From NCBI RefSeq assembly GCF_004216665.1, contig NZ_SGWY01000001.1, forward strand, positions 1,054,001 to 1,118,000: DNA of 64,000 nt, given 5' to 3'. Under the pieces are notes generated by a model. The model was not told the origin of the DNA. It searched no databases and saw only the letters and a program-made list of their open reading frames with translations. This DNA comes from Agromyces ramosus. Its GTDB lineage: Bacteria; Actinomycetota; Actinomycetes; Actinomycetales; Microbacteriaceae. Positions 55,458 through 59,313 of this stretch are shown in pieces; positions within the stretch are counted from its first letter, which is position 1, and the number at the start of each line of letters is the position of its first letter. The translations under genes were made by a program, and so were the position numbers.

Positions 55458-55859
55458 GGACCGGAGCCTATGCCTGCCCGGGGCAGAACAACCGAAATGC
55501 CGCGCACGCCCTGACATGCACGAACTCGAGACCGCAGCCCGAATGTGACCGGATTGCGGGCGCTGAGCGACCGGCTTTCGGGGCGCGTGAGACGGATGGA
55601 TAACCGACCGCGAAGGGGCGAACTGTGCCGAGACCTCGAGTTCCGGAGGAGCTGGATACCGCCCTGAGCGGATCAGTTCCACCAGGCACGCACAGAGTCC
55701 GATCTGCTCGACGACGGTCTCGACTTCGTCGACGTTCGACTCGACGATGCGGCGGTGCACTGGCGTGAGCCATTCTGAACTGACACCCACTGGGGACTCG
55801 CTTACGCCCTCGTGGATCACGTTCTCGTCGCCGACTCAGAGCTGACTTGTTCGAGCTGC
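55458..55859. other. Gene-free decayed stretch before the att repeat
   Basis: About 400 bp without convincing coding potential on either strand; open frames here are Arg/Ser-rich and lack ribosome sites. It ends in the first att-like repeat and probably represents remains of an older element. Confidence 0.5.
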
Positions 55860-55990
55860 GGTCAGAATGTGGACACGCGAATTGACGCGAGCTGAAATCT
55901 GTCGACCTGAACGGCCTGAGATCCCCGAGATTCTGCTGTAGCGAGGGAGGGACTCCAACCCGCGACACCACGATTATGAGCCGTGTGCTC
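55860..55990. repeat. Distal att-like direct repeat with tRNA 3' fragment
   Basis: Aligned with 59051-59184 it differs at about six positions plus a 3-bp deletion (CTG-TAG versus CTGTTGTAG). Bases 55939-55990 are the 3' 52 bases of the tRNA (minus strand), stopping inside the D stem. The T-loop TTCGAGT is changed to TTGGAGT, so this copy is non-functional. Confidence 0.8.
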
Positions 55991-56209: not shown

Positions 56210-56607
56210 CGTGACGGATAGAGGGTTTGGCGGGTTCGTCCGCGGAGTCGGCCGTTGCTGAAGTATTTGGTGCCGCGCTTGGGCCGGATCAGAAACGCAA
56301 CGGCCGGCCTCCTTGGAGTCGAGCCGGTCGGCTGACGCGCCCGTAGCTGTCATCCTGCTCGAATACGCCAATGGACGTGTGGTCGACCTGATCAGCGGCT
56401 TCCACGGGTCGCACACCGGCGTACTCATCCCACATGGTTGGCCTCAACTCCTCAGAGGTGGCCGACGTCGTGCGCGAGGGCCAGCATTGGCTGCAGGAAC
56501 TGCATCGTTCGTTGGCGGCGGACTCACACCTTCTTCAGCGCAGCTTCCGCGGCAGGTCCATCTTCCCAGGCCATGTGCAATCCGAGCGGAGCTCAGGGCC
56601 TCCACGG

Positions 56608-56642: not shown

Positions 56643-58769
56643 ATGGACACCGTGATGGAGCTCGAGATCGGGCCAAGCCCCGAGCCGGGGTCCTTCACGG
56701 TGCGCGTGCTCCGGTCGGCCAGTGGCGACGAGCCGACTGGAATCATCACGCTCGACGTCGACGAACTCCTCGCTCACCGGCCGCTCTTGGAAGCCACAGT
56801 TCTCTCATCCGCGGTCTCTGCACGGCGCATCCTTCCAGCGACGGAGGTGGTCTTACGTGCCATGGGAGAGCGGTTATTCGTCGCCACGTTCGACGGCGCG
56901 GTCGGCGCGGCGTATCGCACCAGCCGGGCGATCGCCTCGGAGCGAGGAACGGCGCTCCAGATCGCGCTGCGCCTGACGGCGCCGGAACTCGCGACGTTAC
57001 CGTGGGAGTCTTTGTTCGATCCTCAGGCCGGGGTATACCTCTGCCGGAAGGAGCCGCTTGTACGCCACGTCCCCGCGCCACATGCGTCGCCGGCGCTTGC
57101 GATTTCACCGCCGTTGCGCATCCTCGCCATGGTGGCCTCGCCACGCGGGCTGCCCAAGCTTGACGTCGAAGCTGAACGCGAGCGCCTGGAGGAGGCGCTG
57201 CGGCCTCAGCTCCTCGACGGCCTCATCCACCTCGAGTGGCTCGAGGAGGCATCATGGCAGGGCATCCACAGCAGACTTCTCGCGAAGAAATGGCACGTAC
57301 TGCACTTCATCGGGCACGGTACGTTCGACACCGAGTCCGATGAAGGAATGCTCGCGTTCGTCGGCCCGGACGGCAGGGCCGATCTCGTCCCGGCGAATGC
57401 TCTCGCAGACCTGCTCGACGAGGCCGAGCCAACACCAAGACTCGTCGTCTTGAACTCCTGCCAGTCGGGTGCAACTGGCGCCACCGATCTCTTTTCGGGC
57501 ACAGCCGCGGCACTCGCGCACAGCGGGATCCGCGCGGTCGCGGCAATGCAGTTCTCGATCAGCGACTCGGCCGCTATCGCGTTCGCACGGGCCTTCTACA
57601 CTGCGCTTGCCTACGGCCGAGGCGTGGATGAAGCAGTTCGGAGCGGCCGCATCGGAATCCTGGGGCTCGGCCGCGGCACACTCGAATGGGTGACGCCGAT
57701 GCTCTATCTCCGCGGCGATGATGCGCACCTCTACTCGATCACTCAGGCGCCAGCGTCGACCGAAGTTCCGACGAAGCCAGAACCCAACCCTGACCCGGAA
57801 AAGGTAGTGCAGCCGACGTCGCTGCCGGAGGCAGAACCCGAACCTGACCCGGAACCCGTCGTGGAGCCGCGGTCCCTGCCGGAGGCTGAACCCGCACCAA
57901 CGCCCGACCCGAAGCCGGAGCCCGCACGGGAGCCGAAGTCGCCACTGGACACCGAACCCGAGGCCGCGCCGATTGCAGAACTTGAACCCGAACTAAAACC
58001 TGTTCTGGAGCCGAAGTCGCTGCCGGAGGCCGAACCCGAACCCGAACCAACGCCCGACCCGAAGCCGGAGCCCGCACGGGAGCCGAAGGCGCCACTGGAC
58101 TCCGAACCCGAGGCCGCGTCGATGGAGGAACCCGAATCGGAATCCGAGGCCGGACCATTGCCGAGGTCGGAGGCGGACCCCGAAGCCAGCCCCAACGCAG
58201 TTGCTATACAGGCACTGGCAACTGAGGCGAGAGCGGGTGCCTTGACGGAATCCGCCGAGCCGGAGTCCGCGCCGTCCGGAGCCCGACGCCGCTGGGTGCT
58301 TTGGATCGGTCTCGGAGGCGTGCTGGTGGTGGCAGTGATCGCGGCCATCAGCCTCTTGCCTCGATGGTACGGCGGGGGCAATCCATCGATCGGTTCCCTG
58401 GTTGGAGTTACGGTGCCGATGAATGGGATCACCTCATCCAACCTCTCGTGCCAAGCGGGAGACCGCATGATCATTGCAGCGTCGGGCGAGGGATGGTACG
58501 ACGCCTCGGACGCGTCGCGAGTCGGTCCGGAAGGGCTCACAAACGGCGAGCTCCCCGAGCTGCGGGTCCTTGGCTCAGCGAACACCGCCTCGCTCATTGG
58601 ATGGCTCGACACTGACGATGACGACAAGGATCGATTCGCCGTCGGCTCGTCCACGAGCTACGCCTGTCCCGTCGACGGCACGCTATATCTCGGGATCAAC
58701 GACAAGGAAATCATGGACAATCGCGGCCAATTCGAGGTCGTCGTCCAACATGTCCCCGCTCAGGAGTGA
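56643..58769 (+). CDS. CHAT protease with Pro/Glu linker, membrane span and PA-IL-like lectin domain
   Basis: 708 aa. CHAT domain ~10-365: the lead-in ALQIALRLTAPELATLPWES, catalytic His225 in HFIGHGTFD and Cys273 in VVLNSCQSGAT form the caspase-like dyad. Residues ~371-548 are a Pro/Glu/Asp/Lys-rich linker containing a 34-residue duplication (starts ~411 and ~459). A basic ARRR precedes one membrane helix (~551-572), predicting N-inside. The C-terminal ~585-706 resembles PA-IL (LecA) lectins: MIIAASGEGWYDASD, ASLIGWL, and DGTLYLGIND followed by DNRGQFEV, with the Asn-Asp and Asp-Asn pairs where LecA binds calcium. So a cytosolic protease is tied to an outside sugar-binding-like domain. No partner gene is adjacent. 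The frame upstream of 56643 is non-coding. GC and codon use are less extreme than in core genes, suggesting transfer. Confidence 0.85.
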   Translation: MDTVMELEIGPSPEPGSFTVRVLRSASGDEPTGIITLDVDELLAHRPLLEATVLSSAVSARRILPATEVVLRAMGERLFVATFDGAVGAAYRTSRAIASERGTALQIALRLTAPELATLPWESLFDPQAGVYLCRKEPLVRHVPAPHASPALAISPPLRILAMVASPRGLPKLDVEAERERLEEALRPQLLDGLIHLEWLEEASWQGIHSRLLAKKWHVLHFIGHGTFDTESDEGMLAFVGPDGRADLVPANALADLLDEAEPTPRLVVLNSCQSGATGATDLFSGTAAALAHSGIRAVAAMQFSISDSAAIAFARAFYTALAYGRGVDEAVRSGRIGILGLGRGTLEWVTPMLYLRGDDAHLYSITQAPASTEVPTKPEPNPDPEKVVQPTSLPEAEPEPDPEPVVEPRSLPEAEPAPTPDPKPEPAREPKSPLDTEPEAAPIAELEPELKPVLEPKSLPEAEPEPEPTPDPKPEPAREPKAPLDSEPEAASMEEPESESEAGPLPRSEADPEASPNAVAIQALATEARAGALTESAEPESAPSGARRRWVLWIGLGGVLVVAVIAAISLLPRWYGGGNPSIGSLVGVTVPMNGITSSNLSCQAGDRMIIAASGEGWYDASDASRVGPEGLTNGELPELRVLGSANTASLIGWLDTDDDDKDRFAVGSSTSYACPVDGTLYLGINDKEIMDNRGQFEVVVQHVPAQE
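57874..58117 (+). repeat. Duplicated ~100-bp coding repeat in the CHAT linker
   Basis: The segment at about 57874-57974 recurs at about 58017-58117 with few changes, encoding two copies of a PEAEP...PTPDPKPEPAREPK...PLD-type unit. A shorter LPEAEPEP unit precedes them. Near identity at DNA level implies recent duplication and easy length variation of the linker. Confidence 0.8.
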
Positions 58770-58795
58770 GTGGATGGCCATACCCCAGCGAGTCT

Positions 58796-59086
58796 AGAGC
58801 GAGTCTGGCGGTCGCTTCCGGGGCGAACGTGAAAGCAGTCCAGCGCATGCTTGGGCATGCCTCTGCGGCGAAGACCCTCGACACCTACTCGGACCTCTTC
58901 GACGATGATCTCGATATCGTTGCTGTCGACTCTCGACGAGGCCGCGTCGAGAGTTCTGAGCGCGCTCGACTGACACCGAACCGCGGCACGGCTACACGTT
59001 GGCGGATCACGATCCCATTGTCGGAATCACACCCAGTCGGTTTGAGATGTGGTCAGAATGTGGACACGCGAATCGACGCGAGCTGA
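58796..59086 (+). pseudogene. Tyrosine recombinase (integrase) C-terminal remnant
   Basis: The frame from 58796 reads RASLAVASGANVKAVQRMLG followed by HASAAKTLDTYSDLFDDDLD, the conserved end of phage-type integrases: the second-His region (GHAS) and the nucleophile Tyr in LDTYSDLF are intact. Everything upstream (core-binding domain, first Arg, Lys) is missing and a stop codon precedes the fragment; after ~58915 the sequence drifts. It lies 46 bp from the tRNA, in the direction expected for an int gene at an attachment site. Not functional. Confidence 0.82.
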
Positions 59087-59184
59087 AATCCGTCGACCTG
59101 AACGGCCTGAGATCCGCGAGATTCTGCTGTTGTAGCGAGGGCGGGACTCGAACCCGCGACACCACGATTATGAGCCGTGTGCTC
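59051..59184. repeat. tRNA-proximal att-like direct repeat
   Basis: Second copy of the 55860-55990 repeat; its last 52 bases are the 3' part of the intact tRNA(CAU). Recombination between the two copies would excise about 3.2 kb and leave one tRNA gene. Confidence 0.8.
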
Positions 59185-59206
59185 TAACCACCTGAGCTAC
59201 CCCGCC
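59133..59206 (-). tRNA. tRNA-Met/Ile2 (anticodon CAU)
   Basis: 74 nt. Acceptor stem GGCGGGG pairs with CCTCGCT (two G-U pairs), D arm GCTC...GAGC, anticodon loop CTCATAA, T arm GCGGG-TTCGAGT-CCCGC. CAU with this body is most like the elongator tRNA-Met; a lysidine-modified tRNA-Ile2 cannot be excluded. CCA is not encoded. The two acceptor wobbles may reflect replacement of its 3' end by the integrated element. Confidence 0.9.
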
Positions 59207-59241
59207 GGGTAGGCCTCGTCGGTCGGACCGAAGAGAACCAG

Positions 59242-59313
<72 letters not shown>

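Follow-up and report, generated by a model that had tools for sequence, protein, structure and literature searches.

CHAT proteases serve as the effector in SAVED-CHAT, TPR-CHAT/Craspase and gasdermin-linked systems, and in the well-known systems of this type the switching signal acts within the cell, as RNA or a second messenger. PA-IL/LecA and PllA are small soluble lectins. HetF carries a CHAT domain and a single predicted membrane segment; it interacts with FtsI (PMC8406250), reportedly cleaves PatU3 (PMC12288457) and provides a precedent for a membrane CHAT protein acting at the envelope. The EACC1-caspase two-gene systems, prevalent in actinobacteria, combine a small constant partner with an N-terminal caspase-superfamily protease of variable C-terminus, and some of them carry a transmembrane helix and an outside periplasmic-binding-protein domain (Kaur et al. 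2020, PMC7159879). In the same article Trypco1 is named and described beside trypsin-like peptidases, as a component of the VMAP/trypsin conflict systems. Finally, a CHAT/TIR protein, predicted to be cytoplasmic, has been described as the target of a diversity-generating retroelement (PMC10907252); the targets of such elements usually vary in a C-type lectin domain.

The gene considered here lies in a stretch of 64,000 nucleotides of the Agromyces ramosus genome (the window), at positions 56643..58769 of the + strand, and encodes a candidate receptor protease of 708 amino acids, with no internal stop, in which a CHAT domain, a linker, a single membrane helix and a PA-IL-like domain follow one another. 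The frame is open already from a TTG at 56313, and the start at 56643 is preferred because the homologues share a start motif of the M-D-x-V-M-E-L-E-I-G type; the coordinates and reading frame of the preliminary description are correct. The cytoplasmic N-terminal region (residues 1-372, 56643..57758, +) contains the complete caspase-like CHAT domain that had been claimed, with a Pfam match to PF12770 over residues 101-340 (E 4.1e-32, 112 bits, cut-off 24) and with His225 and Cys273 in the motifs HFIGHG and LNSCQS. When residues 1-372 were compared with PDB sequences using phmmer, the one match at E<=0.01 was the CHAT protein 8tl0 (1.9e-10). A model of residues 1-376 reached a mean pLDDT of 48.7, which is too low for use, and the catalytic geometry derived from it was set aside.

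With respect to the known CHAT proteins, HetF ranks first among the NCBIfam matches of the window protein, with E 4e-18 over the CHAT part and 65 bits against a cut-off of 1200. HetF of Anabaena resembles it in having an N-terminal CHAT domain and one membrane segment (PMC8406250), but has a TPR region in place of the lectin-fold domain. The best PADLOC match is SAVED_CHAT (E 7e-19, residues 112-374), a weak BovA match also falling over the CHAT domain, and no SAVED or TPR domain was found in the window protein by Pfam at E<=1. The window protein has the CHAT protease in common with the SAVED-CHAT, TPR-CHAT/Craspase and gasdermin-linked systems, from which it differs in being membrane-anchored. 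The plan of the EACC1-caspase system is also recognizable, with a small constant partner and an N-terminal protease of variable C-terminus, but the model of the EACC1-associated caspase (NF047832) gives 24 bits with a cut-off of 140, the partner is Trypco1 and the outer domain is PA-IL-like. The CHAT/TIR retroelement target similarly combines CHAT with a diversifying ligand-binding region, and differs in the lectin fold, in diversification by reverse transcriptase and in the predicted cytoplasmic location. The earlier statement that no described system joins CHAT to a sugar-binding fold across the membrane is to be read with this in mind: a fusion of CHAT with a lectin-type fold has this precedent (PMC10907252), which is predicted to be cytoplasmic. 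No description of the CHAT-membrane helix-PA-IL architecture, or of a Trypco1-CHAT pair, was recognized among the papers listed by searches of the open-licence literature.

Between the protease and the membrane, a Pro/Glu-rich linker with imperfect repeats spans about residues 373-551 (57759..58295, +). The long Pro/Glu repeat linker noted previously is real in the window protein, but it is not a feature of the family: the window protein is the richest, with a P+E fraction of 0.45 against 0.12-0.38 in the other members, and the linker varies between about 13 and 190 residues, lengths that are approximate, since residue 372 of every gene call was taken as the starting point. The single membrane span expected from the preliminary description was recovered at residues 552-570 (58296..58352, +), the sole hydrophobic segment of the protein (Kyte-Doolittle 2.55). 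It is preceded by SGARRRW, with three Lys/Arg in the 15 residues before it and one in the 15 after, so that the charge distribution predicts a cytoplasmic N-terminus.

The C-terminal domain (126 residues, 58389..58766, +) is a case of a fold whose identification required its relatives, given that Pfam returned no PA-IL match in the window C-terminus with any of three queries and that a single-sequence search of the PDB was marginal (PA-IL, E 0.04; PllA, 0.05), with designed repeat proteins ranking above PA-IL by virtue of many weak repeats. This single-sequence evidence was regarded as too weak by itself. An alignment of 22 outer domains from the window genome and related genomes (A1) revealed six invariant positions, C21, C93, N104, D105, N111 and G113 (22/22), and the profile built on it retrieved five PDB sequences at E<=1, all of the PA-IL family (PllA, 5.1e-7; PA-IL, 2.1e-4; the EclA domain, 2.5e-4; LecA-type, 1.6e-3 twice). 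The AlphaFold2 model of the window domain, calculated with 14 relatives, has a mean pLDDT of 93.7, and in Foldseek it matched 11 PDB chains at E<=0.001, all 11 of the PA-IL family, superposing on LecA (1l7l) with a TM score of 0.82 and 1.7 Å. The PA-IL/LecA fold proposed from the single sequence is therefore secure.

Compared with PA-IL/LecA and PllA, the outer domain has the fold and the ND....N.G loop in common, and it differs in its placement after a membrane helix, in the two invariant cysteines and in a shorter calcium loop. Asp100, Asn107 and Asn108 of LecA, which are calcium ligands, correspond to positions of unequal conservation: Asp100 and Asn108 align with the invariant D105 and N111 in 22/22 outer domains, and the position of Asn107 is occupied by Asp or Asn in 9/22 and by Gly in 11/22. 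The equivalents of the ligand residues His50 and Gln53 could not be aligned with confidence. Since two ligand positions are invariant and the third is variable, binding of calcium and of a sugar is considered plausible. The invariance of both cysteines (22/22) fits an extracellular location, with a disulfide probably formed in the outer domain. The resemblance, judged by eye, of other PA-IL-like relatives to lipoproteins and secreted enzymes is likewise in keeping with the C-terminal domain lying outside. No match of the outer domain was detected at E 1e-3 in a phage collection examined as its possible source.

A search of 150 related genomes gave matches in 16. The window genome (G000) itself contains seven genes of the type, including the window copy: four form a tight array (G000:C1:1320695-1328561) and two further copies are on contig 3, the second of which (L032:9112-11448) has an in-frame TAG at codon 77 and is probably a decayed gene. 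At least one three-part gene is present in 9/60 genomes of the genus (G000, G009, G011, G027, G043, G044, G047, G049 and G053), with one to four genes at a main site that is the same core place in the nine genomes, surrounded by rhamnose-, dehydrogenase- and serine-hydrolase-looking genes and by an NYN-LOTUS gene; in G027, a fragmented assembly, the surroundings are visible in part. The NYN-LOTUS gene was considered as a dedicated partner of the arrays and ruled out, being a core gene found in 58/60 genus genomes. Intergenic gaps in the three arrays measured are 15-86 nt.

Across the 24 members tabulated, the His and Cys motifs (GHG/NSC) are kept in 24/24, Lys/Arg residues are more numerous before than after the helix in 24/24, and the lectin-fold domain is found in 23/24. 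The table leaves out two genes at contig ends (L039_2-, L030_1-) and two of other architecture (L013, L014), and the genes of L010, L012, L015 and L016 were not picked by the motif filter; the PA-IL-like domain is absent from the L010 gene (by eye) and from the L012 gene (by profile). Split pieces in G049 (C1:538.3-538.7 kb) were excluded from the counts. The three features whose failure the preliminary description had named as fatal to its reading are accordingly all present, with a PA-IL match found, the span kept and the catalytic motifs conserved throughout. The one exception to the three-part architecture, L038 (4868-6985), retains CHAT, has a weaker membrane segment and shows no match of its C-terminus to the PA-IL-like profile, yet its CHAT is the nearest to that of the window protein (82% identity over the CHAT region), which suggests that the outer part was exchanged. 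IstA/IstB-like transposase genes were seen by eye at the near end of the L038 contig.

The three-part family is narrow. The same three parts are found in Microbacterium psychrotolerans (L046) and in G102, which belongs to another family, and the outer domain occurs in 9/394 class genomes and 6/396 order genomes. Among the cases examined in these samples it was seen on CHAT in G000, G011 and G102, three of the six order genomes, and on kinases in two others. In three plasmid records a match covers 42-54% of the window protein, starting at the CHAT end; in the nearest, from Arthrobacter (52% identity), the match is followed by TPR-like sequence and then by five predicted membrane segments, as judged by eye.

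In 7/9 genomes with the three-part gene, the main site also contains a gene of 111-148 amino acids that matches Trypco1. The two partners scanned with profiles matched PF19493 (E 4.8e-23 and 7.1e-23; 82 bits, cut-off 24.6) and NF041216 (E 4.7e-17 and 5.2e-17), and there was no EACC1 hit in the small partner. With PF19493 matched at about 5e-23, the partner is a true Trypco1 like that of the VMAP/trypsin systems, which stands beside trypsin-like peptidases (PMC7159879) and not, as here, beside CHAT. In the genus sample Trypco1 is present in 10/60 genomes (11 genes) and CHAT in 20/60, and 10/11 Trypco1 genes lie less than 1 kb from a CHAT match, the exception being G055; three of these ten (G004, G010 and the second G000 locus) adjoin CHAT genes of other architecture. 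Trypco1 also adjoins the gene in L046 and in L097, from another family (E 1e-25 and 3e-25; 91 and 89 bits). Elsewhere in the class it is within 10 kb of CHAT in 1/73 cases, a further case (G239) lying some 12 kb away; the count excludes three G000/G004 hits, and draft contigs can hide pairs. The role of a general actinobacterial CHAT partner is ruled out by the latter figure, and, with the 10/11 of the genus and the description of Trypco1 beside trypsin-like peptidases taken into account, its pairing with CHAT looks like recruitment within one lineage. Trypco1 in cis is not a strict requirement, since the genus search found none in G011 and G044, both carriers of the three-part gene, and none is near the window copy, the two Trypco1 genes of that genome lying elsewhere. 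At the second Trypco1 locus of the window genome (L092:6642-11957; G000:C1:1204.6-1210.0 kb) two CHAT proteins are encoded, one of 1034 aa for which seven membrane segments are predicted and one of 587 aa with none.

The two ends of the protein have evolved at different rates. Trees were built from 23 CHAT and 22 outer domains, L032_9343 being left out of both and L038 of the latter, and they show that the array slots are orthologous between species, several forks being weakly supported; the median end branch is 0.083 for CHAT and 0.51 for the outer domain. Fifteen pairs of genes from the same slot were compared: dN/dS ranges over 0.07-0.20 in CHAT and over 0.20-0.76 in the part that follows the helix, and in 15/15 the higher value is on the outer side. 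The pairs share genomes and so lack independence, and dN/dS values taken at 31-55% identity are rough. In slot D of G000 and G027, for example, CHAT is 94% identical (dN 0.028, dS 0.40) and the outer part 55% (dN 0.394, dS 0.54). The outer-part dN reaches 0.80 and exceeds that of CHAT by up to about 14-fold, to be compared with a dN of 0.03-0.25 at a dS of 0.24-0.75 for neighbouring genes, among them Trypco1 (28 comparisons). Identity drops where CHAT ends, around residue 360, in the pairs scanned, and in the closest pair (slot B of G009 and G027) it dips in the linker only. Between species, the outer domains of slot B differ little from their CHAT in conservation (77-81% versus 81-82%), and no mean dN/dS is above 1, so that a relaxation of constraint could account for some of the speed of the outer domains.

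The window copy differs from the arrays in its surroundings. It sits between a left direct repeat (55849..55990), in which the 3' part of tRNA-Met is duplicated, and a right direct repeat (59040..59184), 93-95% identical to it, which runs into the intact tRNA-Met (CAT) gene (59132..59206, -), the probable integration site. Directly 3' of the gene is the probable C-terminal remnant of a phage-type integrase (58766..59086, +; Pfam E 0.0072, below the cut-off). A match over tRNA-Met is present in 58/60 genus genomes, and the tRNA-Met/tRNA-Thr pair (59132-59313) is an integration hotspot in the genus, as indicated by several genomes in which the 3' part of tRNA-Met recurs kilobases away (e.g. G047, G035, G026, G050). 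Among the 20 CHAT-bearing genomes, whose places were compared by eye, a CHAT match beside tRNA-Met was found in the window genome only; in the others the nearest CHAT is more than 150 kb away or on another contig, with some doubt left by fragmented assemblies. Thus, of the stand-alone cargo of a tRNA islet that had been envisaged, the islet is borne out by the repeats and tRNA-Met, and the gene does not simply stand alone: it is the islet representative of a chromosomal family whose members frequently occur in arrays or beside a Trypco1 gene. Next to the islet, the segment 51348-55457 is part of a stretch with a lower GC content than the first 47 kb of the window, and its small genes comprise two that match no Pfam model and those for an AraC-type regulator, a RibD_C protein and a RidA-like protein.

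The most economical reading of this architecture is that the outer domain senses, the helix transmits and CHAT cuts, and we favour, with a confidence only slightly better than even, single-pass receptor proteases in which the outer domain recognizes a ligand, perhaps a changing one, and switches CHAT, with Trypco1 as a partner and defence or recognition as the purpose. The LecA-fold domain would bind a ligand at the cell surface or wall, with a glycan or other surface molecule as the likeliest candidate, and ligand binding or clustering would alter how the CHAT domains associate in the cytosol, leading to cleavage of a substrate, the small Trypco1 protein encoded beside most chromosomal genes acting as an adaptor, an inhibitor or itself the substrate. 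With a constant protease and diversifying outer domains, each slot of an array may watch a different thing or a changing target, and the purpose would likely be defence, or the recognition of foreign or kin cells. Agromyces is filamentous, which makes it worth considering that the cell's own wall polymers are the ligand of the outer domain, which would bring CHAT to sites of division or branching for the cleavage of a cell-cycle regulator, in the manner of a HetF-like developmental protease. The best NCBIfam match and the reported HetF-FtsI interaction and PatU3 cleavage (PMC8406250, PMC12288457) argue for such a role, which is nevertheless unlikely in view of a score so far under the HetF cut-off and of a distribution limited to 9/60 genomes, with tandem paralogues and fast outer-domain change, that is a misfit for a core function. 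It is from the patchy presence, the tandem copies and the rapid change of most outer domains that we infer defence or recognition in preference to development.

The same tandem paralogues, with different and often fast-changing outer domains in slots that are kept between species, would also be expected if the outer domains matched variable surface glycans of the strain itself or of its neighbours, a mismatch triggering CHAT. Allorecognition of this kind is given a somewhat lower probability than development, because no linked polymorphic ligand gene was identified among the neighbours, read as gene calls and only some of them by profile, and the NYN gene beside the arrays is core. Still less probable is that the lectin-fold domain is a mere surface anchor or adhesin under relaxed constraint, with CHAT regulated from inside, for example by Trypco1. 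An average dN/dS below 1, a calcium site that is partly kept and the occurrence, by eye, of PA-IL-like domains in lipoprotein-like and secreted-enzyme-like proteins are consistent with an anchor, to which the strict conservation of both cysteines and of the ND/N/G residues (22/22) and the recurrence of the domain on two kinases are opposed. If sensing by single-pass receptor proteases is correct, caspase-like signalling would be placed at the bacterial surface, in a compact and swappable system for asking what such receptors recognize. The pairing also extends Trypco1, described beside trypsin-like peptidases, to a partner of CHAT. A more far-reaching version, offered tentatively, would make these proteins bacterial counterparts of the death or pattern-recognition receptors of cell surfaces. 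They would be single-pass proteins, often in tandem arrays, whose diversifying outer domain of lectin fold is tied across the membrane to a conserved protease of caspase type and which, with Trypco1 as a shared adaptor, sense surface molecules of phage, rivals or kin and bring about proteolytic shutdown of the cell, single copies being able to spread as tRNA-islet cargo.

The outer domain is used after a signalling enzyme elsewhere too, as two Ser/Thr kinases of large-genome actinobacteria end in it (L098:7050-8690 and L099:5902-7428; outer-domain profile E 9e-10 and 1e-7, Pkinase E 4e-42 and 3e-44). A membrane scan was passed by the L098 kinase only, and the two represent a possible sugar-sensing type of receptor kinase. 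A similar plan with another carbohydrate-binding domain is found in a CHAT-membrane helix-CBM9 protein (L095:6802-9111; CBM9 E 3e-9). In a small actinobacterial genome, three tandem PA-IL-like matches were observed at G607:C13:60661-61872, each in a 464-aa open frame.
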